In this document: positions 12,004 to 63,921 of the stretch, piece by piece
Numbering within the stretch: the first letter of the stretch is position 1
Layout of the letters: each line of letters begins with the position of its first letter
Origin: Companilactobacillus ginsenosidimutans
GTDB taxonomy: Bacteria; Bacillota; Bacilli; Lactobacillales; Lactobacillaceae
Assembly (NCBI RefSeq): GCF_001050475.1
Contig: NZ_CP012034.1
Location: 2,232,001-2,296,000, forward strand
DNA: 64,000 bases
Direction: 5' to 3'
The notes under the pieces: model-generated
Database searches by the model: none
Seen by the model: only the letters and a program-made list of their open reading frames with translations
Told to the model about the DNA's origin: nothing
Position numbers and translations under genes: made by a program

Positions 12004-12181
12004 GTTCACTTCCGATTCCGGAAGAAAATCGATTTTACGGCCTGGAACGCTGCCGACGCCATTTGAAGGCTTTTCAAAGTGCGAAAAGTCTCCAAACTGG
12101 TCTTTTACTAACCCGACTTCGTCGGCTAAGTAAAATTTGGCGGCTGAGGCCAAATCGATTTTCTTCCTCCATCTGGGGTTG
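12004..12181 (+). repeat. Family I structured repeat, copy A1
   Basis: Begins GTTCACTTCCGATTCCGG. The outer arms GGAAGAAAATCGATTT and AAATCGATTTTCTTCC pair fully. Between them are TGGAACGCTG, a hairpin (ATTTGAAGGCTTTTC with GAAAAGTCTCCAAAC) and a second hairpin (CCGAC-TTC-GTCGG extended by TTTTACTAA and AAGTAAAA). Together they form a three-way-junction shape. Non-coding. Confidence 0.88.
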
Positions 12182-12305
12182 AGCTGGAATTTATTTGGGC
12201 TCATATCTGTTTTGGATTTTTGAGTTTATTGTTTGTATGCGTGCTCTGTTTGGGGTGAAACCTTAGGCCCTAAGACATTTAAGGAAGAATTGAAGTTAAA
12301 AACTT

Positions 12306-12344
12306 AAAGAGCGTGGAGAATTTTTCTTCTCTACGCTCTTTTTT
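12306..12344. terminator. Bidirectional terminator
   Basis: Stem AGAGCGTGGAGAA/TTCTCTACGCTCT with a T-rich loop and T run. It separates the crcB-DUF805 transcript from the convergent dehydrogenase gene. Confidence 0.75.
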
Positions 12345-12393
12345 GGAGGGTTTTATTTTTATTTGTGTTACGTTTGCCTCTTTTATAGTAGAA

Positions 12394-12520
12394 ACGCCCA
12401 AAAGCACACTGAGTCCGAGGTCCTAAGTCATCCAGGCTGCGGGGTGTTACGCACCGCCTCTCCGCTATGGGCTTCTTTAGGACCCGGCCTCAAGGGCGTG
12501 TGCTTTTGGGCTTCGCTTTT
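12394..12520 (-). repeat. Family II structured repeat, copy E3
   Basis: Read on the minus strand it contains CATAGCGGAGAGGCGGTGCG and ACACCCCGCAGC, the core of E1/E2. One core pair is changed on both sides, so pairing is kept. The outer arms GCCCAAAAGCACAC and GTGTGCTTTTGGGC are perfectly paired, and the end is GGGCGTTTC. It abuts the stop codon of the next gene. Confidence 0.85.
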
Positions 12521-13387
12521 TTACCACCAAAGTTTAACAAGTGCTTGTGTTCCTAAATCTCCAAGTCCTTTATCATCGACTAATTCTTCATAAAGTTTTT
12601 CTGCTTGTTTGGTTGCGGGTAGGTTTAGTCCCATTTTTTTACTTTCATCTAATGCTATTCTCAGATCTTTTAGGAAGTGTTTTGAATAAAATCCTGGTTT
12701 GAAGTCTCCGGATAGTATTCTTGGGACGTAGTTTTCCATGCTCCAGTTGTCGGCTCCTCCGCCTTCTAGGGTGGTTAGGACGTCTTGGAGGTTTAGGTTG
12801 GCTGCTTTTGCGTATACTAACATTTCGGTTAGGCCGGTCATCGTTCCTGCTATCATTATTTGGTTGGCCATTTTTGTATTTTGTCCTGCTCCGTAACTTC
12901 CGAAGTAGTGGTTGGATTGGCCTATTATTTCCCAGATTGGTTTTAGTTCTTGGTAGGATTTTTTTGATCCACCGACCATGATTGTTAGTTTACCGTCTCT
13001 AGCGCCTACATCACCGCCGGAAACGGGAGCATCTAAACATTCTACTCCCATTGATTCAGCTTTTTTACCTAATTCTTTAGCTAGGGTGGGGGTGCTTGTT
13101 GTCATGTCTACTATGGTTTGGCCGGATTTTAGACTGGCAAATATTCCGGTTGATTCGTCTAGGTATACATCTTTGACATCTTGAGGAAAACCGACCATAG
13201 TAAAGATGATATCGACGTTTTCGGTTAGTTCTTTAGGGTTCTTGAACCATTTGGCTCCGGCTTTTAAAAGTGGCTCGGCCTTTGATTCAGTTCTTGTATA
13301 AACTGAAACGTCATAGTTAGCTTTCAATAAATTGTTAATGATTCCACTGCCCATGACACCAGTTCCAACAAATCCAATTTTTTCCAT
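12521..13387 (-). CDS. NAD(P)-dependent beta-hydroxyacid dehydrogenase
   Basis: Oxidoreductase of 288 residues from the 3-hydroxyisobutyrate/tartronate-semialdehyde/succinic-semialdehyde reductase family. It shows the Rossmann motif GFVGTGVMGSGI, the substrate loop DAPVSGGDVGA, the catalytic Lys region GAGQNTKMANQIMIAGTM, and the cofactor-proximal KDLRIALDES. The exact substrate is not determined. CGGAGG precedes the ATG. Its 3' half is strongly biased in base use (G+T-rich on the plus strand), matching the flanking repeats rather than its own 5' end. Confidence 0.88.
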   Translation of the reverse strand: MEKIGFVGTGVMGSGIINNLLKANYDVSVYTRTESKAEPLLKAGAKWFKNPKELTENVDIIFTMVGFPQDVKDVYLDESTGIFASLKSGQTIVDMTTSTPTLAKELGKKAESMGVECLDAPVSGGDVGARDGKLTIMVGGSKKSYQELKPIWEIIGQSNHYFGSYGAGQNTKMANQIMIAGTMTGLTEMLVYAKAANLNLQDVLTTLEGGGADNWSMENYVPRILSGDFKPGFYSKHFLKDLRIALDESKKMGLNLPATKQAEKLYEELVDDKGLGDLGTQALVKLWW

Positions 13388-13417
13388 TGAAATTACCTCC
13401 GAAATGACTGATTATAA

Positions 13418-13493
13418 AATTAACATCAGTTTAACATGTAAATTTGTAAAACTGCATAAAGCCGTCTTGTGAAATCATATTAACATGTAATAT
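13418..13493. promoter_or_regulatory. Divergent promoter with two TTAACATGTAA sites
   Basis: TTTAACATGTAAA lies near the promoter of the dehydrogenase gene. ATTAACATGTAAT sits inside the 18-base spacer of TTGTGA...TATAAT, which reads into yitT. Both resemble the palindrome before the HxlR gene 3.6 kb away, which suggests a shared regulator. Confidence 0.45.
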
Positions 13494-13527
13494 AATTTTA
13501 AGAATACATAATATGGGGGTGGCTGCA

Positions 13528-14379
13528 TTGGCCATTTTTAAAGGTTATCCAAAACAAATTTTAGCAGCTGTTTTCTACGGAATTACCTCAGCTATGGGAA
13601 TTCAGTTATTGCTGCAACCGTCAAAAATCTATACCAGTGGCGTCATGGGTGCGTCACAACTGCTCGTCAACTTGCTCGATAAATTCGTGCACCTAAGCAC
13701 CGAAGTTTATTTCTGGTATTTCTTACTCAACGTACCATTAATAATCTTGTCATGGAAGAAGTTAGGGAAAAAGTTTACTGTCCTATCACTGATTTCAATT
13801 GTGTCAGCTTCCGTATTTATATTATTCATTCCTTTGCACCCAATTACAAACGATCCAATGTTAGCTTCAATTTTTGGTGGAGCAATGGTCGGAGTTGGTT
13901 CCGGTGTTTGTTTCCGCTACGGATTTTCAACCGGTGGAACAGATATTATCGCTTTAATTATCCAAAAGAGTCGTGGCGGTACAGTTGGCCAAGTGGGATT
14001 CACAGTTAATGCAATTATCATCGTCATCGCCGGAATGGTATTCGGCTGGGAATTAGCTTTATACAGTATGGTTTCAATTTTTATTACGAATATTGTTATC
14101 GACAGAATGTACATTCAACAACAAAAAATTACCGTGGTTATATATTCACATAGCATCGATGAAATTTCTAAAGAGTTGTTGAAGACACTTAACCGTGGAA
14201 TTACCATGGATTACAATTTGACCGGAGCATATTCAGGAGAACAAATTGGCTCAATGACAATGGTAGTCACGAAGTTCCAACTTTTCTTCATTAAACAAAC
14301 AGTTCAAAAAATCGATCCAAATGCGTTTATTAACATCCAACCAACAATTGGAATAATGGGTAAATTCAGCGACAACTAA
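13528..14379 (+). CDS. YitT-family membrane protein (DUF161/DUF2179)
   Basis: I prefer the TTG start at 13528, placed just after GGGGGTGG, over the ATG at 13513 that overlaps that site. About 283 residues. Five hydrophobic helices (ITSAMGIQLLLQPSKIYTSG, GFSTGGTDIIALIIQKS) make up the YitT domain. A soluble DUF2179 domain at the C-terminus has the FINIQPTIGIMG ending. The biochemical role is unknown; related proteins have been proposed as transporters. Confidence 0.85.
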   Translation: MAIFKGYPKQILAAVFYGITSAMGIQLLLQPSKIYTSGVMGASQLLVNLLDKFVHLSTEVYFWYFLLNVPLIILSWKKLGKKFTVLSLISIVSASVFILFIPLHPITNDPMLASIFGGAMVGVGSGVCFRYGFSTGGTDIIALIIQKSRGGTVGQVGFTVNAIIIVIAGMVFGWELALYSMVSIFITNIVIDRMYIQQQKITVVIYSHSIDEISKELLKTLNRGITMDYNLTGAYSGEQIGSMTMVVTKFQLFFIKQTVQKIDPNAFINIQPTIGIMGKFSDN

Positions 14380-14410
14380 AAAATCCAAGACATTTGTCTT
14401 GGATTTTTTG
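14378..14410. terminator. Bidirectional terminator between yitT and the NAD(P)-binding protein gene
   Basis: AAAATCCAAGACA and TGTCTTGGATTTT stem with a T run on both sides. Confidence 0.85.
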
Positions 14411-14417
14411 TTGGAAA

Positions 14418-15059
14418 TTATTTAATTGCATCGGTAATAGGTTCGTCACCGGTTGCGAATTCATATTCTTTTTTAATTGTTGAAGGTGTCTCGATTACTT
14501 GCATGATGGCTTTTGCAACATCTATACGAGGTACGGATCCAGCTTCGTTTTTACCAGTGAGTTTGATTTTTCCAACTGATTCTTCATCAGTCAACCCACC
14601 TGGGTGAAGGATTGTGTAATCCAAATTTGTACCACGCAAGTGTTCATCAGCATAATGCTTTGCGATGTAGTAAGGTCTGATACCAGAGGCTTCCCACTTA
14701 CTACGATTTTCACTGAACATTGCACTGACCATGATATAACGCTTGATACCGACGGCTTCAGCAACCATCATAGTTTTAATTGCACCATCGAGATCGATTT
14801 CCATTGTTAAATCGTAACCAGCGCCACCGGCACCTGCCGTGAATACAAGAACATCAGCGCCTGAAGCAACAATTGAATCGTGAATTGAATCAAGTGAAGC
14901 TGTCAAATCAATAAATTGTGTTGGAATATTGTTAGCTTGATAAGCATCAATTTGCTTTTGACTACGTAAACCAGCAACGAAATCAATGTTGTGTGATTGT
15001 AATTCACCAATTAATAAATGACCTACTTTACCGTGTGCACCAATAATAAGTACTTTCAT
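14418..15059 (-). CDS. NAD(P)-binding (atypical SDR) protein
   Basis: Protein of 213 residues starting at ATG 15059, with GGGAGG upstream. The glycine-rich motif IIGAHGKVGHLL starts at residue 5, as in the YwnB/SDR_a5 group. A mid-domain YYIAKHYADEHL and LDYTILHPGGLTDE follow. Members bind NAD(P) and act as reductases or redox-linked regulators. The substrate is unknown. It is divergent from an FMN reductase gene, in a stretch rich in redox genes. Confidence 0.85.
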   Translation of the reverse strand: MKVLIIGAHGKVGHLLIGELQSHNIDFVAGLRSQKQIDAYQANNIPTQFIDLTASLDSIHDSIVASGADVLVFTAGAGGAGYDLTMEIDLDGAIKTMMVAEAVGIKRYIMVSAMFSENRSKWEASGIRPYYIAKHYADEHLRGTNLDYTILHPGGLTDEESVGKIKLTGKNEAGSVPRIDVAKAIMQVIETPSTIKKEYEFATGDEPITDAIK

Positions 15060-15154
15060 ATGCAAGACCTCCCATTTACCTTAACTGTACCAACAAAAAA
15101 TAAATTTTGCTAGTATAAACAATATCGTTATAATTGTAAGAGAGGAGGATGCCC

Positions 15155-15919
15155 ATGAAAATATTAGGTATATTAGCATCGCACAAAGAACACGGTCTCA
15201 ACGCAGAATTGCTAGACAATGTTTTAGACAACGTCGATGAGGGTGTTGAAACAGAAACAATTTATTTGGAAAATTATGACATTACACCTCATAAATATCA
15301 CCAAGAGAACGAAGTATTGGATGAATTATCTCAGAAACTCATGGATGCTGACGTTTGGGTTTTCAGTGCACCAACATATTGGCGAGAGGCACCAGGGTTA
15401 TTGAAGAATTTCTTCGATTGTATGCGACCAAAATTCGTATACTTCAAAGAAAATGGTGATACGATCCCTGGACCATTCAAAGATAAACACTACTTGAGTC
15501 TCTCATCTTGTTATATGAGTACGACCGAAAACTTCCTAACCGGGATCACAGACGAGACATTCAAGACAATTGATCGAGTAATGTCAGCAGCCGGAGTAAT
15601 CAAAACCGGCGAAATCGTCCTACCAAACACATTTGGAATGAAAGAAATTCCACAGAAGAAGAAAGATTTGTGTGCAAAGTACGGTCACAAGATTTCACAA
15701 AAACAAGAAAAGGATGATTTAACCATGAAAAGATATATTCAACTATTCTTCATGATTGCAGTCATGGCCCTAGTAACCATGGGAATCCAAGTACCATTAA
15801 AAGCAATCATGCCAATGGATAATTTCTGGATCAACTACGCCAGTTTCACCGTAATATTCTTCGTTCTACTCGGTGCAATTCTGCATTACGTAACATTTGT
15901 TAAGCATCGTAGACGTTAA
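15155..15919 (+). CDS. NAD(P)H-dependent FMN reductase-like protein with a two-helix membrane tail
   Basis: About 254 residues; the start at 15155 has GAGGAGG seven bases upstream. Residues 1-175 are a flavodoxin-like NADPH-dependent FMN reductase (ILGILASHKEHGLNAELLDN, VFSAPTYWREAPGLLKNFFD). After a charged linker, residues about 190-250 form two hydrophobic helices, starting at a Met-Lys-Arg that looks like a former start (MKRYIQLFFMIAVMALVTMG). The tail resembles DUF2798 membrane proteins. The fusion would hold the flavoenzyme at the membrane. There is no frameshift signal. Confidence 0.8.
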   Translation: MKILGILASHKEHGLNAELLDNVLDNVDEGVETETIYLENYDITPHKYHQENEVLDELSQKLMDADVWVFSAPTYWREAPGLLKNFFDCMRPKFVYFKENGDTIPGPFKDKHYLSLSSCYMSTTENFLTGITDETFKTIDRVMSAAGVIKTGEIVLPNTFGMKEIPQKKKDLCAKYGHKISQKQEKDDLTMKRYIQLFFMIAVMALVTMGIQVPLKAIMPMDNFWINYASFTVIFFVLLGAILHYVTFVKHRRR

Positions 15920-16012
15920 GATTTTTTTGTATGTTTTTAGTTTGAGTACAAGTGTAATTTCGATAAACGGGTTTATGGCAATACTTCTTGTGGGGTATTG
16001 CTATTTTTGTGG

Positions 16013-16175
16013 GTTCACTGCCGTCCTCCGGTCAGGTTTTTGGGGGCCGTGGACGCTGTGGGCACGTTCGGAATCCACAGTGCGGTATCCCGAAGCGGCC
16101 TTCTTGTAAGCATGCCCTTTGGCATGCAAACAAGAATATCACGGCTTTGGCCCCCAAAAACCTGACCTGCGGACT
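16013..16175 (+). repeat. Family I structured repeat, copy B1
   Basis: Starts GTTCACTGCCGTCCTCCGG and ends GGACTA. Arms GGTCAGGTTTTTGGGGGCC and GGCCCCCAAAAACCTGACC pair over 19 bases without a mismatch. Internal hairpins are CTGTGG/CCACAG and TTCTTGT-AA-GCATGCC with its complement. Same plan as A1 with a different arm sequence. Confidence 0.88.
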
Positions 16176-16369
16176 AGGGACTCAGATGTATTGCTTGTTT
16201 GGGTGGGGTGGGATGTTCACTTCAATGTTTCTGAATACTGTTAGTTGCTGGGGAAGACATATTATAATTTGATTATGAAATATATTTGTAAGCTAGTTGA
16301 GTCCTAACCTAAGGAACGGATTTGAATTAGACTGGTTCGAATATAGAACATCCATGAAATCAGTCCAAT
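16176..16369. other. Spacer between family I copies B1 and B2
   Basis: No gene or RNA is recognised. The first part is G+T-rich and holds another GTTCACTTC at about 16214 that is not followed by a complete repeat. The rest is AT-rich. Confidence 0.4.
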
Positions 16370-16405
16370 AAAAAAAGAGAAACACCAAATGTACTGGAGT
16401 TTCTC
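16370..16405 (-). terminator. Terminator of the tpx transcript
   Basis: Read on the minus strand: GAGAAACTCCA, loop, TGGTGTTTCTC, then seven T. It is 230 bases after the tpx stop, so copy B2 would lie in the tpx 3' untranslated RNA. Confidence 0.7.
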
Positions 16406-16431
16406 AGTTGAATTGAGATGTAAATGTTATC

Positions 16432-16604
16432 TAGCCCGTAGGTTCGTTTCGCCGGGGGTGCAGCCGTGGAGTTGTTGTTGACGTGCCATGGGGCGCGTTT
16501 ACAACAAAGGTGAGTTTTGAGATTTTTCGGGCTTTGAAAAAGCTCAAAATCGCCTCACAGCGTTCCCATCCCCCGCCGAAACTAACCGGAGGGCGACAGT
16601 GAAC
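16432..16604 (-). repeat. Family I structured repeat, copy B2
   Basis: Minus orientation: GTTCACTGTCGCCCTCCGG at the right end and GGGCTA at the left. The arms GTTAGTTTCGGCGGGGG and CCCCCGGCGAAACGAAC pair with one mismatch. Internal hairpins are TTTTGAGCTTTTTC/GAAAAATCTCAAAA and GTTGTTG-type/CAACAAC-type. Confidence 0.85.
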
Positions 16605-16635
16605 ATCAACAGCTGCAATCAACGACGACCAAACT

Positions 16636-17130
16636 CTAGTTCATTTCGTTTAGTTGATCGAGAACCTTGTCATAACTTGGCTCGTTTGTTTCTTCTGACA
16701 ACACCTCAGAGTAAATAACCTGCTTGTTAGTATCAACAACCCACACCGAACGAGCAAGAATACCCATATCGTTAATCAAAAGATTAGTACTCTTACCAAA
16801 GTTTTGGCTAACATCAGAAAGCATCTTCATGTTCTTAACGCCTTCAGCTGCACACCAATTACTTTGTTCTTCTATAGTATTAGTCGAAATAGTAACAAAA
16901 TTGATTTCCTCGTGGCCGTCAACTTCGCTGTTAAATTTCTTAGTTTGAATGCTGCAAACACTGGTATTAATATTTGGAACGACACTAATTAGAAGCGGCT
17001 TGTCCAAAAGGTCAGTGAGCTTAACCTTGTTATCATCCTTATCCTTGACCGTGAAGTCTGGGAAAATGTCACCAACGTAAGGAGCCTCGCCTGATGTAGT
17101 AACTGCCTCGCCTTTAAATGTTAAATCCAT
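16636..17130 (-). CDS. tpx: Thiol peroxidase
   Basis: Peroxiredoxin of the Tpx subfamily that reduces hydroperoxides using thioredoxin. The start at 17130 has AAAGGTG upstream, giving 164 residues, the family length. The peroxidatic cysteine lies in NTSVCSIQTKKFN. The resolving cysteine lies in NWCAAEG, where most relatives have RWCGAEG. It fits the redox genes nearby. A family I repeat lies in its predicted 3' untranslated region. Confidence 0.93.
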   Translation of the reverse strand: MDLTFKGEAVTTSGEAPYVGDIFPDFTVKDKDDNKVKLTDLLDKPLLISVVPNINTSVCSIQTKKFNSEVDGHEEINFVTISTNTIEEQSNWCAAEGVKNMKMLSDVSQNFGKSTNLLINDMGILARSVWVVDTNKQVIYSEVLSEETNEPSYDKVLDQLNEMN

Positions 17131-17221
17131 AAAATTCACACCTTTCTTTTACCTATTAAGTATAGTGGAAATCAATTTTAAAAAACAGAAATATGATTAC
17201 GTTTGCAAAAATGTTTATCCA

Positions 17222-18028
17222 TTAATTTTCTAACATTTTCTTCATTATTGGAACCTTGCCTAAATCACTAATCTGGTCTCCAGAGACTACGACGGTATTT
17301 GCTGGAGAATTAGCTAATTGGGAGAAGGCATTGATTGTTTGATTTTGGAAATAACCTTCTTTAGCTTGGTTCAAACTTTCGTTCATTTGACCAATACGAT
17401 AACTTTCTGCATCAGCTCTTGTTCTAGTAGCTTTAGCTTGAGCCTCAGCAGTAGCAATCAAGGCATCATTTTTAGCTTTAGTAGTAAGTTCAATACTCTT
17501 AGCTTCGCCTTCAGCCTTAGCAATTGCGGCAATTCTTTCACGATCGGCTTTTAACTGCTTATCCATTGAATCTTGAATTGAGGCGGTTGGCTTCAACTCG
17601 TCAATATTAATACGATCAACGTTGATGCCATAAGTATTTGTTAAGTCCCCAATAGCAGTTGCGAGTTCCTGGTTAATTTTTGAAGTTGATCCAAGAGCTT
17701 CATTTAAGTCCATACGACCGATGATATCACGTAAATGACCACGAACTAATTGTGACATTGACTCAACTGAATCAGTATTTTCGTAACGATATTTAACGGC
17801 ATCTGTCACATGATAGTTCAATGTTACACTAGCGCGGACATCGGCGTTATCTTTTGTAATAATGGAGTAATCAGGCAGTTTGAGTGGATTCATGGCTAAA
17901 CTGACTGCATAAATTTTTTGAATGAACGGAACGTAAAAATGTAATCCTGCATCAACACTGTGGTGATATTTACCTAAAAGTTCAACAAGTCCTTTATGAT
18001 TTTGATGTACTATTTTTATACCAAACAT
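17222..18028 (-). CDS. SPFH/stomatin-like protein without a membrane segment
   Basis: Protein of 268 residues with an SPFH (band 7) domain (about 5-165: GLHFYVPFIQKIYAVSLAMN, DNADVRASVTLNYHV, RGHLRDIIGRMDLNEAL). A long Ala/Glu/Lys coiled coil follows (about 170-235). Relatives normally begin with a transmembrane helix, but none is present and the start is well supported by AAGGAG. It lies ten bases after a small gene whose C-terminus resembles NfeD, the usual stomatin partner. It probably builds a membrane-associated scaffold. Confidence 0.85.
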   Translation of the reverse strand: MFGIKIVHQNHKGLVELLGKYHHSVDAGLHFYVPFIQKIYAVSLAMNPLKLPDYSIITKDNADVRASVTLNYHVTDAVKYRYENTDSVESMSQLVRGHLRDIIGRMDLNEALGSTSKINQELATAIGDLTNTYGINVDRINIDELKPTASIQDSMDKQLKADRERIAAIAKAEGEAKSIELTTKAKNDALIATAEAQAKATRTRADAESYRIGQMNESLNQAKEGYFQNQTINAFSQLANSPANTVVVSGDQISDLGKVPIMKKMLEN

Positions 18029-18038
18029 ATTAATCTCC

Positions 18039-18362
18039 TTATTTAAGTTCTTCTAATGTAAGTATGTTTCCGTTTGCCTCTATAATAGTGTATAAACTAT
18101 CTTCATTAATCGACTTCGTGTTTGCCAAGATATAACGGTAATAGATTCCGTTGACTGAAACGAGACCACTATCAGTTAAAATGTCACTCCCTTGGATAGT
18201 GCGTCCAACAAACTGTCGGCCTTCTAATGATTCGTTCTTGGTGCTTTTTTCAAGAAGGTGCACTATGTAATTGTTAACACTGCGACTTTCGGTTTTTGCT
18301 CGAGCAGCAATTTGATCGTACAAAGCTTGATCAAGTCTTAATAGAAATTTTTTATCTGCCAT
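18039..18362 (-). CDS. Ribbon-helix-helix protein with an NfeD-like OB-fold C-terminus
   Basis: Protein of 107 residues. Residues 1-40 look like an Arc/MetJ-type ribbon-helix-helix DNA-binding domain (KKFLLRLDQALYDQIAARAK, then SVNNYIVHLLEKS). Residues about 52-106 are beta-rich and follow the pattern of the NfeD OB-fold: G-R-T near 55, GLVSVNGIYYRYI, then DSLYTIIEANGNILTLEEL. NfeD proteins pair with stomatins, and an SPFH gene follows after ten bases. A DNA-binding/NfeD fusion is not an arrangement I know. The OB assignment is inference. No clear ribosome binding site precedes the ATG, so a leaderless mRNA is possible. Confidence 0.6.
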   Translation of the reverse strand: MADKKFLLRLDQALYDQIAARAKTESRSVNNYIVHLLEKSTKNESLEGRQFVGRTIQGSDILTDSGLVSVNGIYYRYILANTKSINEDSLYTIIEANGNILTLEELK

Positions 18363-18384
18363 ATCATAATGATATCACTATGAT
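18363..18384. promoter_or_regulatory. Near-perfect 22-bp palindrome at the start of the RHH gene
   Basis: ATCATAATGAT followed by ATCACTATGAT; the halves are complementary except at one pair of positions. It touches the start codon of the ribbon-helix-helix gene, which suggests autoregulation. Confidence 0.5.
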
Positions 18385-18492
18385 AGTATTTTGTGAAATT
18401 GTGAAACCGCTTATATTCATTATTTAGTTTACTTTTTCAATCAAATGATTTATAAATTTTTATATAATAAATTATCAGAAAAGAGAATCAGC

Positions 18493-19029
18493 ATGGAATT
18501 GACTGGTGAAAAAATTATCATAAGAAACTTTGAAGAATCGGACTTTGAAGTCTTCTCACAATTAGTCCAAGATCAAAGTAATCACGAAACAGCAGGATTA
18601 GAATATTCATTAAATAAAAACAATTCGAGAGATATTTTTAATAAATATTTAGTTCTTGCCAACACTTATGTTATTGCTTTAAAATCGAGTCACAAGATGC
18701 TCGGCATTATTGAACTGAATGAACGGGGAGTATCTGATGGTTTAGACAAGACTAGAGAGATTGGATTTGTGATTTCTTCAGATCAACGAAACCACGGATA
18801 TGCTAGTGAGGCTATTAAGCTCATGCTAAGTCATTCATTCAATACGCTGCATCTTACGGAAGTATGGGCTTCGGTGAAGACAACTAACCCTGTGCCGCAA
18901 GCTCTACTTTCAAAGTTAGGGTTTAAATACATTTATCAAGTCAGTCAGGATCCATTACATTTGGAATCTGAAGACAAGATGTTGAAGTATTATTTGCTTA
19001 AGAACGAAAACGGGGGCGTGAATGAATAA
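18493..19029 (+). CDS. GNAT N-acetyltransferase, RimJ/RimL type
   Basis: About 178 residues from ATG 18493 (AAGAGA upstream; the longer frame starts without a site). It has GEKIIIRNFEESDFEVF at the N-terminus and the acetyl-CoA loop GFVISSDQRNHGYASEAI. The final strand is VWASVKTTNPVPQALLSKLG. RimJ/RimL-type enzymes acetylate protein N-termini or small amines using acetyl-CoA. The substrate cannot be assigned. Confidence 0.85.
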   Translation: MELTGEKIIIRNFEESDFEVFSQLVQDQSNHETAGLEYSLNKNNSRDIFNKYLVLANTYVIALKSSHKMLGIIELNERGVSDGLDKTREIGFVISSDQRNHGYASEAIKLMLSHSFNTLHLTEVWASVKTTNPVPQALLSKLGFKYIYQVSQDPLHLESEDKMLKYYLLKNENGGVNE

Positions 19030-19101
19030 TTCACCTGTTTTTTTATCAATTTATTTATCAATTGATAAATGAAAATTTATAAGGAAGGAGAGGATGCTAT
19101 A

Positions 19102-20526: not shown

Positions 20527-20574
20527 GCATAATTAAAAATTAAATTTTTATGTAACAAAACTCAAACCAAAGCA

Positions 20575-20609: not shown

Positions 20610-20653
20610 GTTCGAATTGAAATTTTCTATATTTTAACCTATGGAGGGTACCG

Positions 20654-21739: not shown

Positions 21740-21742
21740 AAA

Positions 21743-31268: not shown

Positions 31269-31445
31269 TGGGAGGGTGCCGATTCCGGGAGAAAATCGAT
31301 TTTTGGGCTGGAACGCGGTGAATCGACTTGAAGCTAATTGCAAGGGGCGCAATCATCTCCAAGCTCGATTTTATTCTAAGTGTGCTTCGCGCACTAAGAA
31401 TAACCCCACCGCTGAGCCCAAATCGATTTTCTCCCGGAATCTGGG
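31269..31445 (+). repeat. Family I structured repeat, copy A2
   Basis: GTGCCGATTCCGGGAG start. Arms GAGAAAATCGATTTTTGGGCT and AGCCCAAATCGATTTTCTC pair closely. The TGGAACGC element and a TTATTCTAAGTG/GCACTAAGAATAA hairpin follow. The first internal hairpin differs from A1 but still pairs (CTTGAAG-type with CTCCAAG-type). Confidence 0.83.
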
Positions 31446-31591
31446 GTGGCGCTCTGTTTGTTTTTCGTGCGCTGGTTTCGATTTTTGTGGGCGTTCCGAT
31501 TGGTGCTGGCTTTTTTCGTCTGTTTAATACAACTTTTGCTGTGGTTTCCTGCGGTTTAAACCGACATTAAAATTAAAGGCAAAATCAAAAT

Positions 31592-31790
31592 CAAGTGCTT
31601 GCTTATTCTTCGAATGTCGCGGTTCAAGATCTGGATCAAGTTCAAGTTCAAGTTCAAGGTCAAGTTCAAGTTCAAGTTCAAGTGCTGTGCTTATTCTTCG
31701 AATGTCGCGGTTCAAGATCTGAATCTAGTTCAAAATCTAGTTCAAGATCAAGTGCGGGCTTATTCTTCGAATTACGCAGTTCAAGTTCTG
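31592..31790 (+). repeat. Nested tandem repeat with TTCAAG hexamers
   Basis: GCTTATTCTTCGAATGTCGC starts at 31600 and 31689, and a variant starts at 31758 (units of about 89 and 69 bases). Each is followed by TTCAAGATCT. The first unit then runs into an array of TTCAAG/TCAAGT hexamers (about 31631-31682). No long frame with a ribosome binding site uses it, so I treat it as non-coding. Confidence 0.8.
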
Positions 31791-31993
31791 GTGATGATTT
31801 TGATTTGTGTTTCGCAATTTATGTTCTTGGGTGTTGTTTTGAGTTCCAGAATCTGGGAATTTATTTGTTGTTTTCTTCTCTTAAAACGTTTTCATAATTG
31901 TGCAATGGACTTTAAATTTAAGTGTTGAAGTCTTTTGAGTTGGTTTGGTTTACAATAATATTACAATTATCAATTTTGGAGGATTAATATCCA

Positions 31994-40353: not shown

Positions 40354-40524
40354 TTAGATGTAGGAAGAAAATCGATTTGGGCTCAGCAGCCAAATTTTAC
40401 TTAGTCGACGAAGTCGCCTTAGTAAAAGACCCAGTTTGGAGACTTTTCGGTCTTTGAAAAGCCTTCAAATGGTGTCGGCAGCGTTCCAGCCCGTCAAAAT
40501 CGATTTCCTTCCGGAATCGGAAAT
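40354..40524 (-). repeat. Family I structured repeat, copy A3
   Basis: Minus orientation: CCGATTCCGGAAGGAAATCG at the right and CGATTTTCTTCC at the left. It contains the TGGAACGCTGCCGACACCAT element, the GAAGGCTTTTC hairpin and the CTAAGTAAAATTTGGCTGCTGAG side in the same order as A1. It is not in an obvious transcript: the dtpT terminator lies before it, and tRNA genes read the other way. Confidence 0.86.
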
Positions 40525-40633
40525 AATCCTCAAAACTAAATTTTTCCCCAATCCAACTAACAAAAATAGCAAATAACACTTGAAATTTACCAATATCTTC
40601 GGTAATATATTTTAAGTCGAAAGATGATATTTC

Positions 40634-49471: not shown

Positions 49472-49603
49472 ATGACTAAGGGGTTGAACCAAAAGAATCG
49501 GTTTTAATATTTGGTACTCCACGTAATTTTGGATGCGAAGCGGCAAAGCATTCACGATGACACTCAAGTTATCACGTAGTTTCATTGAAGTGAGAGGAAA
49601 ATC
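49472..49603. other. Intergenic segment before repeat D
   Basis: No gene recognised. Contains small inverted repeats (ATGCGAAGCGGCAAAGCAT) that may be a decayed repeat copy. Confidence 0.35.
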
Positions 49604-49787
49604 GAGCCGGAAGGAGCAAGAAATACAGGTAGCAGTGAAAGTGGAATTAAGGCGAGAGCCTTAATTCCACAGGACGAGTTTTGAAATTCGCGAACCGTGC
49701 GAAGTTCAAAACCGAGATTGAAGACCGCACTTCGGCTTCAATCGGTCCCACCGCAACCTGAATTTCTTGCTCCTGCAGGCGGCATCC
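49604..49787 (-). repeat. Family I structured repeat, copy D (four-way form)
   Basis: Minus orientation: GATGCCGCCTGCAGGAGC start and CTTCCGGCTC end. The arms GAGCAAGAAATTCAGGTTGC and its counterpart pair with one mismatch. Three internal hairpins: GATTGAAG/CTTCAATC, GGTTTTGAAC/GTTCAAAACC-type, and GTGGAATTAAGGC-TCTC-GCCTTAATTCCAC (13 perfect pairs). It has one more hairpin than other copies. Confidence 0.78.
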
Positions 49788-54995: not shown

Positions 54996-55009
54996 ATTGC
55001 GTTCCCACT

Positions 55010-56999: not shown

Positions 57000-57047
57000 A
57001 AGTTTTACCATTTTAAAAATTGGACCGCACCAATTTACTAAATGATA

Positions 57048-57096
57048 TTTACTAATGAGTTTGCTGATGTTAAAATATTAAATGCAAACGATTTCA
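57048..57096 (+). promoter_or_regulatory. rbsD promoter with cre site
   Basis: TTTACT, 17 bases, TAAAAT (57071-57076). It is followed at 57082-57096 by ATGCAAACGATTTCA, a full match to the cre consensus, over the expected transcription start. CcpA would block initiation. Confidence 0.7.
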
Positions 57097-57111
57097 CAAA
57101 GGATGGATATT

Positions 57112-57507
57112 ATGAAAAAAACTAGAGTTATTAATTCTGACATTTCACGAGTAATTTCAACAATGGGACATTTCGATACACTTGGTATTGGTGACGCTGG
57201 TATGCCAGTTCCAGCTGGTACTGAAAAAATTGATTTAGCTCTTGAAGCTGGTATTCCAAGTTTCATGCAAGTTTTAGAAAATGTTTTGAGCGAACTTCAA
57301 GTTCAAAAAGTTTATCTTGCTGAAGAAATGAAAGTTCAAAATCCAGAACAATTAGCTGCAGTCAAAAAGGTTGTGGGTGACACTCCAATCGAATTTATTC
57401 CACATGAAGATATGAAAAAAGACCTTAATGACACTAAGGCATTTATTCGTACAGGTGAAGAAACACCTTATTCAAACATTCTGCTTGAAAGCGGCGTTGT
57501 ATTTTAA
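57112..57507 (+). CDS. rbsD: D-ribose pyranase
   Basis: Converts beta-pyranose ribose to the furanose form used by ribokinase. 131 residues from ATG 57112 (AAGGATGG upstream). Signatures: [17 protein letters not shown] with the catalytic His near residue 20, and C-terminal [16 protein letters not shown]. First of rbsD-rbsK. No ribose transporter is present in this window. Confidence 0.95.
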
Positions 57508-57536
57508 AAAAGTTAATTAGTTGAGGATATTTTTTT

Positions 57537-58454
57537 ATGAAAAAGATTGTAGTATTAGGTTCAATTAATGTTGATACCATTCTAAATATTTCACATTTAC
57601 CACAACCAGGAGAAACAATGCACATGCAAGATCGTTCAACTGCCGGTGGTGGAAAGGGAGCTAACCAAGCTCTAGCAGCAGTTCGTGCCGGAGCAGACAC
57701 AGCCTTCATTTCAAAAATTGGTAAAGATCACGCTGCCGATTTCATGATGAAAACTTTCGAAGAAGACGGGTTGAATTTAGATCACGTAACATTTTCTGAG
57801 ACTGAAGGAACAGGAAAGGCCTACATTTTACTTCAAGATGGTGGACAAAACAGTATTCTTGTTTACGGTGGTGCTAATGCCGACGTTACCGTTGAAGATG
57901 TAGATGCAGCAAAGGATGTAATCAAAGACGCTGATTGCATCATCGCGCAATTTGAAGTTCCAATTCCAGCAATTACTGAGGCTTTCAAGATTGCCAAAGA
58001 AAATGGAGTTCTAACATTCTTAAACCCTGCTCCAGCACCAAGTCGCAGAGACATTCCTGATGAATTATTAGGCTTAACAGATATTATTGCACCTAATGAG
58101 ACTGAAGCCGAAATCATTACAGGCGTGCATGTCGACAGTGATGAATCAATGCAAGCAGCTGCCAAAGCTATGCACGACATGGGAATTCAAACAGTATTAA
58201 TCACCGTAGGATCAAAAGGTTCATTTTATTCATTTGCGTCAGGTAAGACTGGATTTGTTAAGGCATTTAAAGTAAATGCAATTGACACAACAGCAGCCGG
58301 AGACACATTCGTAGGTGCTTTAATGGCTAAATTGAATACAGATATGAGCAACATTGAAGAAGCAATGACATATGCCAACAAATCTTCATCAATTACAGTT
58401 CAAACAAAAGGTGCTCAAAATTCAATTCCTTACGAAAAACAAGTTGAACTTTAA
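57537..58454 (+). CDS. rbsK: Ribokinase
   Basis: Phosphorylates ribose to ribose 5-phosphate. 305 residues of the PfkB family: LGSINVDTILNISHLPQPGE, the GGGKGANQALAAVRAGA signature, VTVGSKGSF, and DTTAAGDTFVGAL with the catalytic Asp. It lies 29 bases after rbsD and is probably under the same CcpA-controlled promoter. Confidence 0.95.
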   Translation: MKKIVVLGSINVDTILNISHLPQPGETMHMQDRSTAGGGKGANQALAAVRAGADTAFISKIGKDHAADFMMKTFEEDGLNLDHVTFSETEGTGKAYILLQDGGQNSILVYGGANADVTVEDVDAAKDVIKDADCIIAQFEVPIPAITEAFKIAKENGVLTFLNPAPAPSRRDIPDELLGLTDIIAPNETEAEIITGVHVDSDESMQAAAKAMHDMGIQTVLITVGSKGSFYSFASGKTGFVKAFKVNAIDTTAAGDTFVGALMAKLNTDMSNIEEAMTYANKSSSITVQTKGAQNSIPYEKQVEL

Positions 58455-58564
58455 AATTAATTTGAATCAATCACATATGACTTATTCAAATTGTAATATC
58501 AAGCAATTCTCCTTCAAATATATTATTAAAATTTGTAGCATTAAATAATTAAAATTATATGAAA

Positions 58565-58600
58565 AAACAGGATAAAATTAAATGTTTATCCTGTTTTTTG
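58565..58600 (+). terminator. Terminator of rbsDK
   Basis: AACAGGATAAA and TTTATCCTGTT stem, then six T. Confidence 0.85.
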
Positions 58601-58623
58601 ATTGTAATAAATTTGTAAGAATG

Positions 58624-58740
58624 TTAGTATAATAGTTGTATTTTTGAATGGGCAATGGGTCGAATGGTTTTAGAAGACTATGCTTCCATAACGTATCACG
58701 AAAAAATGCACAAATATTAGTTATCAGGAGGAATAGTCTG
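58624..58740 (+). promoter_or_regulatory. Cold-shock gene promoter and leader
   Basis: TAGTATAATAG gives a -10 followed by a leader of about 100 bases, long for the distance and typical of cold-inducible csp mRNAs. It ends in AGGAGGAA. Confidence 0.5.
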
Positions 58741-58941
58741 ATGGAACAAGGAACAGTTAAATGGTTTAACGCCGAAAAAGGCTATGGTTTTATTACACGC
58801 GAAGATGGTAGTGATGTATTCGTACATTTCTCAGCCATCCAAGGTGACGGTTACAAGACACTAGAAGAAGGTCAAGCAGTAACATTTGACATCGAAGATA
58901 GTGATCGTGGACCACAAGCTTCAAACGTTGTTAAAAACTAA
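58741..58941 (+). CDS. cspA: Cold-shock protein CspA family
   Basis: RNA chaperone of 66 residues: [19 protein letters not shown] includes RNP1 (KGYGFI), and VFVHFSAI includes RNP2. The start at 58741 is set by AGGAGGAA. Single-strand binding melts mRNA structure in the cold. Confidence 0.97.
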
Positions 58942-58971
58942 TTATAAATAAAATCGGATTAATAGTCCCGT

Positions 58972-59012
58972 TGAAGAAGTGTAGGCTTTTATAGCTTATG
59001 CTTCTTTTTTTG
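58972..59012 (+). terminator. Terminator of cspA
   Basis: GAAG-GTAGGCT and AGCTTATGCTTC stem with bulge, then seven T. Confidence 0.75.
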
Positions 59013-59051
59013 TATTTTTGTAGTGTGGTAATAAAACTGCAGCTTGTAGAG

Positions 59052-59230
59052 GTTCACTGCCGCCTTTCGGGGGTTGATTATTTTTTCGGGCTGGAACGCT
59101 GGCGACGCCATTTGAAGGCTTTTCAAAGCCCGAAAAGTCTCCAAACTGGGTCTTCTACTAAGCCGAGAAAATCACTCGACTAAGTAGAATTTGCCGGCTG
59201 AGCCCAAAATAATCAACCCCCGAAAGGCTA
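59052..59230 (+). repeat. Family I structured repeat, copy A4 (arm-swapped)
   Basis: GTTCACTGCCGCCTTTCGGG start and GAAAGGCTA end. The interior is almost the same as A1 (TGGAACGCTGGCGACGCCAT, GAAGGCTTTTC hairpin, TCTACTAAGCCGAG hairpin). The outer arms are CCTTTCGGGGGTTGATTATT and AATAATCAACCCCCGAAAGG, fully paired and unrelated to the A1 arms. Confidence 0.9.
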
Positions 59231-59525
59231 GGTCAAAAGCTTAAACTACTTAACGGGTGGGGGTCGTGGAGTGCTGCAGCTCCTGTTGTTCACTTCAGAT
59301 TATTTGATACTTCGTTTACTGGCCTTTTTTGGTGTGTTCACTCTAATTCTAAAAAATCGAATTCAAAACCAGACATCAAATCAGGAATGAATGTTGAGGA
59401 GCTTTTATTTACAATATCTGCAAGTTTCGAAAGTAACTGAATAATACCACTCTCAAAACGAAGGAGAGTGTGTCCCAAAATGCCCATTTTATTCAGCGTT
59501 AATAATATTTATGTCAAAGCTAGTT
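59231..59525. other. Spacer between family I copies A4 and B3
   Basis: No gene recognised. Two extra GTTCACT strings (about 59289 and 59336) without a full repeat suggest decayed or partial copies. A small ACTCTC/GAGAGT hairpin lies near 59450-59470. Confidence 0.4.
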
Positions 59526-59700
59526 TAGCCTGGAGGTCAGGTTCCGCGGGGGCCCAAGCCGTGGCGTTTTCCTTTGCTTGCCACAGGGCAAGCTTAGGAA
59601 AAAACCGAGTTTTGAGATTTTCCCGGGCTTGGAAAAGCTCAAAATCGTGTTCACAGCGACCACGGCCCTCGCGGAACCTGACCGGAAGGCGGAAGTGAAC
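59526..59700 (-). repeat. Family I structured repeat, copy B3
   Basis: Minus orientation: GTTCACTTCCGCCTTCCGG at the right and CCAGGCTA at the left. Arms GGTCAGGTTCCGCGAGGGCC and GGGCCCCCGCGGAACCTGACC pair with small changes. Hairpins TTTTGAGCTTTTCC/GGGAAAATCTCAAAA and TTTTCCT-AAGCTTGCCCTGTG-type follow. Confidence 0.87.
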
Positions 59701-59776
59701 CCTCCACCAAGTAAATATCATTAAAACTAAACTTAAGTTATAATAAACCCTAAACACACAAAAGGAAGAACCTTAG

Positions 59777-60415
59777 TTGGCCCAAAAACGTAGAACGTCT
59801 CATCGTCGTAAACGGCGTAGAAAGAATCAAAACGAGCCTATTTATATCATTATCGCAGTCGTGTTGCTCATCTTAGTTGGATTTTTCGGATATCATAAAT
59901 ATCAACAAAAACAACAAGACAACGCGACTGAACAAGTCCAAGAGGAGAAAAACGCTTTTATCAAGCAGGTCGCTCCGGAAGCTATTAAACTTGGACAACA
60001 ATATGGCGTATTGCCTAGTATCACTATTGGACAAGCTATTTTGGAAAGTGATTGGGGTAATAGTACTCTCGCAAGTAAATATAATAATTATTTTGGTATT
60101 AAAGGTACGAATCCGGATAATACGGTTGTTTTAGAAACGAAGGAATATACTAATGGTCAATGGGTTACGATAAATGGCCGATTCAGGTCTTACACTGATT
60201 TTCGTGAATCGATGAAGGATCATGCTTTATTGTTGGTCAATGGTACGACTTGGAATTCTTCGCAATATCAACAAGTAATTAGTTCGAAGGATTACATTGA
60301 AGCTGCTGTTTCATTGCAAACGGATGGATACGCGACTGACCCTGGATACACATCAAAAATAATCCATGTTATACAAAAATACGATTTAATGAAATATGAT
60401 GAAGGAATCAAGTAA
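59777..60415 (+). CDS. Membrane-anchored N-acetylglucosaminidase (GH73)
   Basis: 212 residues starting at TTG with AAAGGAAG upstream. A very basic N-terminus (RRTSHRRKRRRK) leads into one helix (IYIIIAVVLLILVGFFGY), then a GH73 domain: ITIGQAILESDWGNSTLASK with the catalytic Glu, NNYFGIKG, and a C-terminal YATDPGYTSKIIHVIQKYDL. It cuts peptidoglycan glycan strands outside the cell while staying tethered. The length is short because it has only the catalytic domain. Confidence 0.9.
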   Translation: MAQKRRTSHRRKRRRKNQNEPIYIIIAVVLLILVGFFGYHKYQQKQQDNATEQVQEEKNAFIKQVAPEAIKLGQQYGVLPSITIGQAILESDWGNSTLASKYNNYFGIKGTNPDNTVVLETKEYTNGQWVTINGRFRSYTDFRESMKDHALLLVNGTTWNSSQYQQVISSKDYIEAAVSLQTDGYATDPGYTSKIIHVIQKYDLMKYDEGIK

Positions 60416-60464
60416 CCACGCCGTTATTTATGATAAAATTTATATTAAAAATGATGGGAGATAG

Positions 60465-61049
<585 letters not shown>

Positions 61050-61068
61050 GCATTAGGAAGGTGGATTT

Positions 61069-62199
61069 ATGACTTTTATTGCACCCGGTAAGACTTTAGG
61101 GATTATCGGTAGTGGTAGTGAGACATATCTTTGTGAATTAGAAGCTAAAAGAATGGGCTTTCGTACCATTCTCTTAACTGACAAGCAAGACGACATTGCT
61201 ACTCAAGCAGCCGATAATTTTCTTGTCGGTGAATTGGAAAATCTTGATAATTTAAACGAATTGGGGCATAGAAGTGACCTTCTGTTATACATGGATGATA
61301 ACTTTGACAGCCACCTTTTAGAGAGCCTTGGCGAAAAATTTAACGTAGCCCAAGGCTCTAATTTGCTTGCTATATCTCAAGATAGATATATTGAACGAAC
61401 ATTTTTGAATGAATTGAATATCAACGTGCCACCATTTTTCTCAATTGTGACTGTTGATGATATAAAAAAAGCTGTCCAGGAGATTGGTTTTCCATGCATG
61501 ATTAAACCAATTCAGAAAAATCAAGACTTGTTGAAGCGTCACATTATGTACAACGAAGATGACGTAAAACATGTTCAAGATTTGCTTAAGAATGGGACTT
61601 ATATTCTTGAAGCATGGATTGATACAAAAGCTGAATATTCGATAATGGTCAGCAAAAGTAAGAATGGAAAAATTCATACTTTCCCAATGATTCATGAGGT
61701 GTATGACGGGACTCATTTGATGAGTGCCTACATTTCAAGGAAAAATGACCCAGCAATTGAAGCTGAAATGCAAAGAGTTGCTTTACAGGTGGCTCAAAAT
61801 ATTGACTATGTGGGAATTTTTGGTATAGGATTTATATTGTCCCAGACCGATGTCCTCTATGTTAAAAGCATTTTTCCGGGTATCAATTATGCAGCTAATG
61901 TATATCAAGAAGCGACAGGTATTTCACAATTTGAACTCCATATTAGAGCGATTTGTGATTGGCCAATCCCCGAAATTTATCCATTAGTTGATACTGCTAT
62001 CCTGAAAATTGTTGAAGGAATACTGCCACAAAGTTTGGATCTGTTACAAGAAAAAGCACAATGGAAATTTAACTACTACACTGGTTTCAAAGCGAAGAAT
62101 GAACCTGCACGAGATGTTGGCTATATCTCTTTAGTCGGAGATAGCGTCGAAAGTCTCAAGCAAGATATTCAATCAACTAAAATTTGGAGAGTAGAGTAA
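61069..62199 (+). CDS. Degenerate PurK-like ATP-grasp protein
   Basis: 376 residues with PurK layout: N-terminal [20 protein letters not shown], a middle ATP-grasp domain, and a C-terminal [17 protein letters not shown] region. Active PurK has a glycine-rich KTRRGGYDGKG loop and a metal-binding NE-APRPHNSGH motif. Here those places read [15 protein letters not shown] and [15 protein letters not shown], so ATP and metal residues appear lost. The frame is intact and well translated (AGGAAGGTGG upstream), so a non-catalytic or new function is likely. It sits five bases before purB. Confidence 0.8.
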
Positions 62200-62203
62200 A
62201 TAT

Positions 62204-63499
62204 ATGATTGACAGATATGTGACCCAAAAGATGAAGCCCATTTGGACTGATCAAAACAAATTTCAAGCATGGCTAGAAGTTGAAATAGCTTCCGTTGAAG
62301 CCTGGAGTAAGCTTGGTGAGATTCCAGCTGAAGACGTTGAAAAAATTGCTAAGAACGCAAAATTTGACGTTTCTGAGATAGCTGAGATTGAAAAAGATAC
62401 TAAGCATGATGTAGTTGCCTTTACACGTGACGTTTCAAAGTCACTAGGCGACGAAAAGAAATGGGTTCATTTTGGTTTAACATCAACAGACGTTGTTGAT
62501 ACAGCATATGGCTACTTAATGAAGCAAGCCAATGATATTATCCGCGAAGATTTAGACACTTTCCTTGAAGTAGTAAAGAACAAGGCCCTAGAGTACAAAG
62601 ATACAGTAATGATAGGTCGTACTCACGGTGTTCACGCTGAACCAACAACATTTGGTTTGGTCCTAGCAAACTGGTATTCAGAAATCAAACGAGACATCGA
62701 ACGCTTTGATCATGCCGCAAAAGGCGTTGAAGCAGGAAAAATTAGTGGTGCTGTAGGTAGTTTTGCCAACGTACCACCAGAAGTAGAAGCATTCGTTTGT
62801 GACAAATTAGGCATCAGAGCTCAAGAAGTATCAACACAAGTACTTCCAAGAGATCTACACGCTGAATACATCACAACAATGGCAATCATCGCTACCTCAG
62901 TAGAAAGATTTGCCCTTGAAGTAAGACATATGCAAAGAACCGAAGTTCGTGAAGCCGAGGAATATTTCGCAGCCGGACAAAAAGGTTCATCAGCAATGCC
63001 ACATAAAAGAAATCCAATCGGTTCAGAAAACGTAACTGGATTAGCAAGAGTAATCAGAGGACACGCACTAACAGCCATGGAAGATATTCCATTATGGCAT
63101 GAACGTGATATCTCACACAGTTCCGCAGAAAGAATCATAATTCCAGATACAACAGAACTACTAGACTACATCTTGACAAGATTTACAAAGATCACAAAAG
63201 ATCTAACAGTATTCCCAGACAAGATGAAAGAAAACATGAACATAACACACGGCCTAATCTACTCACAAAGAGTTCTACTAAAACTAGTAGAATCAGGACT
63301 AAGTAGAGAAGCAGCCTACGACATAGTACAACCATTAACAGCCAAAGTTTGGGACGAAGGAAAAGACTTCAGAACACTACTAGAAGCCGACAACCGAGTA
63401 ACAGACAACCTAACAAAAGAACAACTAGACGATGCCTTCGACTATCACTGGCACATCAAACACGTCGACGACATCTTCAGACGAGTAGGTCTAGAATAA
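62204..63499 (+). CDS. purB: Adenylosuccinate lyase
   Basis: Cleaves SAICAR and adenylosuccinate in purine synthesis. 431 residues of the fumarase/aspartase superfamily. Signatures: [35 protein letters not shown] with the catalytic His, and [19 protein letters not shown] with the catalytic Ser loop. It directly follows the PurK-like gene. Codons shift to A- and C-ending forms in the last 500 bases (hand count: 26 A+C of 60 at 62461-62520, 45 of 60 at 63361-63420). Confidence 0.97.
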
Positions 63500-63529
63500 A
63501 TTAAATAAACGCTGTGAATTCAGCAAAAA

Positions 63530-63583
63530 GAGATATGGTCGAAAACCAAGAGAAAAACAGTTTTCGACCATATTTTTGTTTTT
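63530..63583 (+). terminator. Terminator of xpt-purK2-purB
   Basis: ATATGGTCGAAAAC and GTTTTCGACCATAT stem (14 pairs), then a T-rich tract. Confidence 0.9.
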
Positions 63584-63745
63584 TAAGTGAAGTTTTTGAG
63601 TATATATTTTTTTGAGAATTTCACAACTAATGAAGCAACGATAACCATGAAATGGAAATAAAGTAACCAATGTTTATATTCCAAATATTTGGGGTATTCC
63701 CGCCGGTACAACGAAGTTAGTGACAAACTGCAAGCGAAGTGAAGC

Positions 63746-63921
63746 ACCAGATGGAGGAATGAAATCGATTTTGGGCTAAATGGCTAAATTTTACTTAGTC
63801 GAGCGAACTACTCGACTTAGTAAAAGGGGCAGCTTGAAGACTTTTCGAACTGTGAAAAGGCTCCAAGTGTCCCAGCCATGTTCCAGCCCAAAAAATCGAT
63901 TTCATTCCGGAATCGGCAGTA
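63746..63921 (-). repeat. Family I structured repeat, copy A5
   Basis: Minus orientation: ACTGCCGATTCCGGAATG at the right, CATTCCTCCATCTGG at the left. Arms GAATGAAATCGATTTT and AAAATCGATTTCATTC pair. Inside are TGGAACATGGCTGG, a GGAGCCTTTTCA/GAAAAGTCTTC-type hairpin, and TTTTACTAAGTCGAG/CTCGACTAAGTAAAA. Confidence 0.86.

Follow-up and report, generated by a model that had tools for sequence, protein, structure and literature searches.

What is the long foldback repeat that occurs nine times within a 64,000-nucleotide stretch of the Companilactobacillus ginsenosidimutans genome (hereafter the window), and is its fold maintained as RNA or as DNA? An earlier note on this stretch had described these repeats, here called family I, and had offered three readings: an RNA, a cruciform DNA site, or a non-autonomous element that is mobilised in trans. 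Our analysis leads us to think it somewhat probable that family I is a dispersed non-coding, non-autonomous foldback DNA element, similar in behaviour to BOX repeats or miniature inverted-repeat transposable elements (MITEs), rather than an RNA. What carries this reading is the manner in which the stems covary and the dispersal of the unit. We begin with the copies themselves.

From an alignment of 29 copies (A1; five from the window, the others from the same genome and four relatives) we built a covariance model, R1. Searching the 64-kb window with R1 returned exactly nine family I matches at E ≤ 1 (E 4e-45 to 5e-11). These are the nine copies of the earlier note and no others, each at most 7 nt from the position given there, and four of them (31276, 40354, 49603 and 63747) lay outside the training set of the model. 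In the list below, ORF stands for open reading frame, and terminator-like hairpins were recognised by eye.

12004..12176, + strand: family I copy, CCGATTCCGG subtype; R1 E 2.6e-34; about 16 nt past the stop of the + strand ORF 11562-11987
16013..16177, + strand: family I copy, typical subtype; R1 E 1.3e-43; after a terminator-like hairpin and T tract
16215..16221, + strand: GTTCACT direct repeat, 37 nt past the 3′ end of copy 16013
16431..16604, − strand: family I copy; R1 E 4.1e-45; faces 16013 in the same intergenic region
31276..31444, + strand: family I copy, CCGATTCCGG subtype; R1 E 1.7e-30
40354..40528, − strand: family I copy, CCGATTCCGG subtype; R1 E 1.4e-31; antisense to both neighbours (an ORF and a tRNA)
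49603..49786, − strand: family I copy, subtype Ib, three inner hairpins; R1 E 4.9e-11
59052..59231, + strand: family I copy; R1 E 3.5e-39; after a terminator-like hairpin
59288..59294, + strand: GTTCACT direct repeat, 56 nt past the 3′ end of copy 59052
59525..59700, − strand: family I copy; R1 E 9.2e-45; faces 59052
63747..63924, − strand: family I copy, CCGATTCCGG subtype; R1 E 3.2e-32

A family I unit measures about 155-195 bp (156-180 bp among the A1 copies). Read on the motif strand, it opens with unpaired GTTCACTGCC, followed by GYC, which belongs to the outer stem, by a small internal loop and by the long, variable remainder of that stem; at the junction, the motif GGCTGGAACGC leads into an inner stem with a conserved asymmetric loop, a type-1 hairpin and a type-2 hairpin, after which CCACGGCTGAGCC and the second outer arm run to GRCTAG. 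The type-1 hairpin, present once or twice per unit, contains an AGC..TCT mismatch (C opposite T), and the type-2 hairpin (TAA..TAA) is present once. Outer stem, junction and inner hairpins are common to all nine window copies, and the long outer arms with two or three inner hairpins described earlier are thus borne out. The common ends that had been proposed, GTTCACT..CCGG on the 5′ side and a 3′ end near GGCTA, apply to a part of the copies: 16013 (ending in GACTAG), 16604, 59052 and 59700 have both, 12004 has the GTTCACT start and a variant end, and the description fails for 31276, 40354 and 63747, which together with 12004 form the subtype that has CCGATTCCGG at the 5′ end and no GGCTA, as well as for 49603. 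The last of these represents subtype Ib, which has two type-1 hairpins and three inner hairpins in total. Ib is the common form among the copies read in genome G004 (G and L numbers denote genomes and loci); there the outer-stem sequence differs in nearly every copy and one hairpin (TCGATTTTGAGCTTTGC..GCAAATCTC) hardly changes. In the window's own genome, copies often carry a tail of about 37 nt after the 3′ end, followed by a GTTCACT repeat.

The fold is strongly supported by covariation. Loops and mismatches, including unpaired positions, are conserved in A1, and 48 of its 50 pairs show changes on both sides. Paired cells amount to 92.6% compared with 65.2% after shuffling, and double-change cells to 390 compared with 105.7, neither value being reached in any of 500 shuffles; altogether, four of five covariation measures have an observed value reached by 0 of 500 shuffles. 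When the structure was slid by 1-3 columns, no version came near the observed pairing.

Family I is also abundant. The window belongs to a genome of 2.59 Mb in a single contig, which contains at least 131 R1 matches at E ≤ 1e-4 (150 of 594 candidates scored). The true number is higher, as window copy 49603 is absent from the set. Sixteen of the 131 are partial beyond a few end positions, 14 of them within model positions 36-147. Per 64-kb stretch this set has a mean of 3.3 and a maximum of 11 copies, and the window is dense for family I. One protein of the window's genome has its best named homologues in Companilactobacillus, with C. furfuricola first (82%). Within this genus, matches at E ≤ 0.001 were found in 34 of 36 genomes, 11 of which gave 77 matches among 77 scored; G006 and G034 gave no match at this threshold. 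The covariation and the high copy number that the earlier note had predicted are thus both seen, and so are copies outside the window, whose absence would have spoken against it. In an order-wide sample, scanned with stricter filters and 7 candidates scored per genome (up to 77 in the genus scan), matches occurred in 25 of 395 genomes and 8 of 80 genera, all belonging to the window's own family, Lactobacillaceae. The copies read from other genera keep the structure and do not keep the GTTCACT start. As far as sampled, family I is confined to one bacterial family. A scan of genome contigs for the 5′ pattern picked 22 stretches, none from lactobacilli by title, the window's own or a very near genome having possibly been excluded. 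Run on 18 of these 22, two viral stretches and L045, R1 gave 22 weak matches, the best of 28.7 bits over 53 nt (E 4e-6). We read these as an effect of selection by the 5′ pattern; R1 can score short 5′-end matches, and match length therefore matters. Searches with one element copy against phages and with three against plasmids gave no match, and carriage on either was rejected on that basis.

Is this covariation the signature of an RNA? Selection acting on one RNA strand should tolerate G.U and not A.C, which makes the two mismatches a convenient measure. G-U pairs have served to judge the strand of one motif, and single-stranded DNA has been considered for another, in PMC2864571. Our control, 26 lysine riboswitches of the same genus, has G.T in 179 (15.6%) and A.C in 6 (0.5%) of 1144 cells. 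In 113 copies of family I the corresponding numbers are 121 (2.2%) and 82 (1.5%) of 5484 cells. Other sets give 2.1% and 2.1% in A1, 2.5% and 1.7% in 49 copies of the own genome, 1.6% and 1.6% in 19 copies from other genera (loci L123-L137), 3.2% and 2.0% in 33 copies of G012, and 45 (3.3%) and 25 (1.8%) cells in 23 Ib copies. If one favoured T.G pair at the junction is set aside, A1 has 13 G.T and 31 A.C cells. Terminator-like hairpins without an A tract (74 of them, with at most two unpaired positions allowed) show G.T in 5.4% and A.C in 1.0%. The near-absence of wobble pairs speaks against a one-strand RNA and suggests folding as DNA. This counts against the RNA reading of the earlier note in its one-strand form, and pairing kept at the DNA level supports a foldback or a cruciform, which may form in the cell.

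Location offers the one-strand idea, namely a structured RNA such as a 3′-UTR (untranslated region) element or a small RNA kept by selection at each place, some support. We analysed the position of 112 of 129 matches with a crude ORF caller; three had no upstream ORF. The upstream ORF lies on the strand of the copy in 68 of 109 cases, often with the copy right past its stop: in 47 of these 68 the stop codon is at most 38 nt from the 5′ end of the copy (median 21.5 nt). Conserved loops and mismatches and strong covariation would likewise be expected. However, the other 41 of the 109 copies are antisense to the upstream ORF as called, G.T hardly exceeds A.C where the riboswitches show a ratio of 30 to 1, and no copy matches an Rfam family over its gathering score, so that we regard this explanation as very unlikely. 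An Rfam match, which the earlier note had named as a refutation, was indeed not found: the search of the window reported a lysine riboswitch and tRNAs alone. A relaxed search in E-value mode, covering one window stretch and five loci, gave matches far below the gathering scores throughout. Sub-threshold matches overlapping window copies are mir-193 (19.7 bits, E 0.14) and SCARNA7 (15.6 bits, E 0.16). A known Rfam family was therefore rejected as the identity of the window copies.

Neighbouring copies keep to one arrangement. Among the 131 own-genome matches, 20 neighbouring pairs start at most 900 nt apart, and all 20 have the order + then −, so that the two copies face each other; no pair has any other order. 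The pairs 16013/16604 and 59052/59700 of the window are among them. In the own genome, G+T makes up 80% of the last 10 nt 5′ of the element, compared with 62% in a nearby control. In genome G031, the loci L097 and L121 each hold a facing family I pair with near-equal spacing and similar flanks, and look as if a larger unit had been duplicated.

Several observations point to a discrete mobile unit. The twelve pairs of own-genome copies with 91-95% identity have flanks that are alike only to the background level (0.53-0.68 identical, near the medians of 0.59). Of 49 own copies, 11 show GTTCACT again 35-40 nt past the 3′ end and one further copy shows it at 56 nt, compared with 0, 0 and 1 in control windows; with one mismatch allowed, the count is 19 against 2, 2 and 3. 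In G012, tandem units lie 245-251 nt apart. Alike copies with unrelated flanks, tandem units and the repeat about 37 nt past the 3′ end agree with the third reading of the earlier note, that of a mobile unit. Copies of G012 (L070-L074, L142-L161) have two classes of longer tails, each running into its own terminator-like hairpin, and one of these classes also has a common upstream leader (TTCTTTTTCAAGTTTGGTT).

Comparison of related genomes adds that family I is gained and lost over time. At one conserved gene, four species differ: G012 has a family I array directly past the stop, in G014 a terminator-like hairpin is followed by a copy of another subtype, and G025 and G026 lack the element, as judged in each case by reading and by R1; these genomes are too diverged for base-exact junctions. 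G004 and G023 are 88-93% identical in large matched blocks, and R1 finds seven copies in a 20-kb stretch of the former compared with one in the matching stretch of the latter. At two sites of G004 copies, G023 has short scars, such as TTGCCG joined to ACTAG (seen by eye). Another G004 copy, flanked by AAAAAT on both sides, is missing from G023, and in G020 this site holds part of a related copy (98 nt, 87%), to which R1 gives no score. The hairpins seem to disappear through deletions at their foot. A search for the scar pattern gave 11 places, spread over 10 of 36 genomes, where a backward control gave 4. Only three of the 11, two of them in G012 and the third in G029, resemble hairpin scars to the eye, and the search adds little.

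These comparisons bear on another DNA-level explanation, in which family I would be a chromosomal site for a host protein (gyrase, HU or a cruciform binder) with a function like that of bacterial interspersed mosaic elements (BIMEs) and passive spread. Such a site would account for the location at gene ends, the strict facing pairs, the DNA-level pairing and the conserved unpaired positions. Yet G006 and G034 do without any match at E ≤ 0.001, copy number and subtype differ greatly among related species, and the deletion scars suggest that single copies are dispensable; we hold a host-protein site to be quite unlikely.

How might a foldback DNA element keep its arms paired? We counted Watson-Crick double changes and one-sided changes in disjoint pairs of alike copies. 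At identities of at least 92%, the ratio of double to one-sided changes was 9:8 in the own genome (5 pairs), 6:17 in G012 (9) and 5:18 in the riboswitch (8); at 85-92% it was 43:19 (12 pairs), 27:38 (12) and 10:22 (5), and at 75-85% it was 113:44 (16 pairs), 35:50 (9) and 30:57 (8), respectively. The stems of the own copies L012 and L026, which are 95% alike, differ by three double changes and one single change. The own-genome ratios favour either one arm rewritten from the other or very strong selection. The one-sided changes of G012 comprise 6 G.T and 7 A.C, 14 and 15, and 18 and 15 in the three classes, without an excess of G.T.

A mechanism consistent with these data can be sketched. The element would fold as DNA, either as a hairpin on single-stranded DNA or as a cruciform, and an enzyme acting in trans may recognise the folded form. 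Pairing would be kept since only well-folded copies would get copied, and perhaps also because hairpin-templated synthesis occasionally uses one arm to rewrite the other. If copies are tolerated past stop codons, both their location and the facing pairs would be explained, since a gap has two gene ends only where the genes converge. A more far-reaching version is possible, if doubtful: family I might belong to an old class of self-templating foldback elements, in which the folded single strand is active, a host enzyme moves it behind stops and an arm is rewritten in each cycle. Were this true, stems would diversify freely yet stay perfectly paired.

One candidate for the enzyme is the Y1 transposase, with family I representing the ends of IS200/IS605 or REP-type (repetitive extragenic palindromic) elements. 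Family I, as folded DNA with a short flank that is conserved, would suit the way in which this transposase family works. The Y1_Tnp family, however, was found in 18 of 36 genus genomes; seven genomes with 76-77 matches among 77 scored are without it, whereas G006 has it and no copies. Y1 as a required mover was accordingly rejected. As a present-day mover it is largely refuted, as a past one it is possible, and the explanation as a whole appears highly improbable. We also dismissed the idea that hairpins are generally tolerated because the hairpin nuclease gene has been lost. All 36 of 36 genomes have an SbcD-family match, 34 of them over the curated cut-off, and hairpins thus persist where the nuclease gene is present. 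The two genomes below the cut-off are G031, with 77 family I matches among 77 scored and an SbcD match with stops, and G034, in which no copies were seen.

A number of observations weigh against a foldback DNA element. One concerns the wobble count: 71 terminator-like hairpins with an A tract, that is, bidirectional ones, have G.T in 27 (3.6%) and A.C in 23 (3.1%) of 741 cells. Bidirectional terminators thus mimic the result for family I, and the test opposes a one-strand RNA, not a fold needed on both RNA strands. These hairpins lie at the same loci as family I, and a device that acts as RNA on either strand (a terminator for both directions, an insulator or a protector of mRNA 3′ ends) has to be considered. 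Copies are located at gene ends with neighbours facing in 20 of 20 pairs, as such a device would require. It nevertheless seems unlikely. By eye, terminator-like hairpins lie between the two facing copies in the two regions read (L014 and L015); the T-rich stretch of the own-genome tail starts about 15-20 nt past the 3′ end, whereas in an intrinsic terminator the T tract follows the hairpin immediately; the two strands do not have the same conserved mismatches; and dispersal as a unit would be left unexplained. There are further points on the adverse side. T.G is favoured at one junction position (17 of 29) and at one Ib position (11 of 23), and the fifth covariation measure, that of further pair types, was reached by 3 of 500 shuffles. 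Double changes are not in excess in G012, and the case for arm-to-arm copying as something general is weaker for it. The distances from the stop codon (47 of 68 within 38 nt) stand without a background distribution. G004 and G023 share one element with 94% identity over 183 nt, which means that the family may be moving slowly or no longer, and the candidate empty site at AAAAAT may represent a loss, given the partial copy in G020. Neither a clean empty site nor a target duplication was established in the comparisons of G004 with G023 and among G012, G014, G025 and G026. Finally, no mover was found; the Y1 family was tested in the 36 genomes and other recombinase families were not searched.

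Among known systems, integron attC sites and the ends of IS200/IS605 elements act as folded single-stranded DNA with conserved unpaired bases. The attC core is GTTRRRY, which GTTCACT does not fit. Inverted terminal repeats of the adeno-associated virus (AAV) type have an outer stem and inner hairpins, and their arms are copied from each other in replication, whereas family I is a dispersed chromosomal repeat of bacteria for which no self-primed replication has been shown. MITEs share with family I a short, non-coding, dispersed foldback nature, but terminal repeats accompanied by a target duplication are unproven in family I, and a parent transposon, for which no systematic search was made, did not come to light. 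REP, BIME and REPIN sequences with their RAYT partners resemble family I in being intergenic palindromes with more than 100 copies per genome. REPs, however, are 20-40 bp palindromes with a GTAG or CGTC tag according to PMC3733652, whereas family I units are several times longer, branched and not in need of a Y1 gene. The BOX elements of Streptococcus, treated with RUP and SPRITE in PMC3049150, are among the closest: they too are small interspersed intergenic repeats with a modular build, paired ends and a variable number of inner modules, and they are over-represented between convergent genes. Family I has the same modularity, with paired ends and two or three inner hairpins, a likeness by description and not by comparison of sequences. 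It differs in its occurrence in another bacterial family and in several genera, its long, near-perfect and variable outer stem and its two hairpin types. As regards membership in a named family, BOX-type and MITE-type elements are therefore the closest candidates, by behaviour only. We found no paper on such a repeat in lactobacilli in the open-licence literature, a 2017 list of 224 candidate RNAs being outside the comparison, and within that literature this family of branched hairpins of about 170 bp appears to be undescribed.

A single bacterium from a genus linked to food thus has well over 100 such hairpins, and related ones occur in several genera. Repeats of this kind make it harder to assemble genomes, to annotate RNAs and to interpret 3′ ends. 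Should the pairing be maintained at the DNA level, family I would be a natural system in which to test how folded DNA is recognised and whether the arms of palindromes correct each other. The G.T and A.C counts, together with the riboswitch and terminator controls, provide a simple means of separating one-strand RNA from DNA-level covariation and can be applied to other candidate RNAs. The strict facing order is a pattern that needs an explanation in its own right.

Some further features accompany the copies. The same IS3-type element splits three own-genome copies near the junction, in the same orientation relative to the copy: at L009:8634 (+) after CCGTGGT, at L017:4079 (−) after CTGGAA and at L032:3792 (−) after CTGTG. 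Plasmids gave no near match to the stretch with this element, although relatives of its transposase occur on plasmids with identities of up to 51%. A smaller second repeat (GAACGTAYGAGCT..AACAGT..GTTGGCTACGCCAACGAACA or its complement) is situated inside the first inner hairpin of several family I copies (L009:2555−, L010:942+, L013:1556−, L030:2840−, L038:1545+, and L081 and L083 in G030). Within the window, positions 12398-12510, between the first copy and the next gene, form a further long foldback by eye (AAGCACAC..GTGTGCTT, with an inner hairpin) that R1 does not match, and positions 31585-31800, past copy 31276, contain short tandem repeats of the TCAAGT type and a unit with GCTTATTCTTCGAAT three times.

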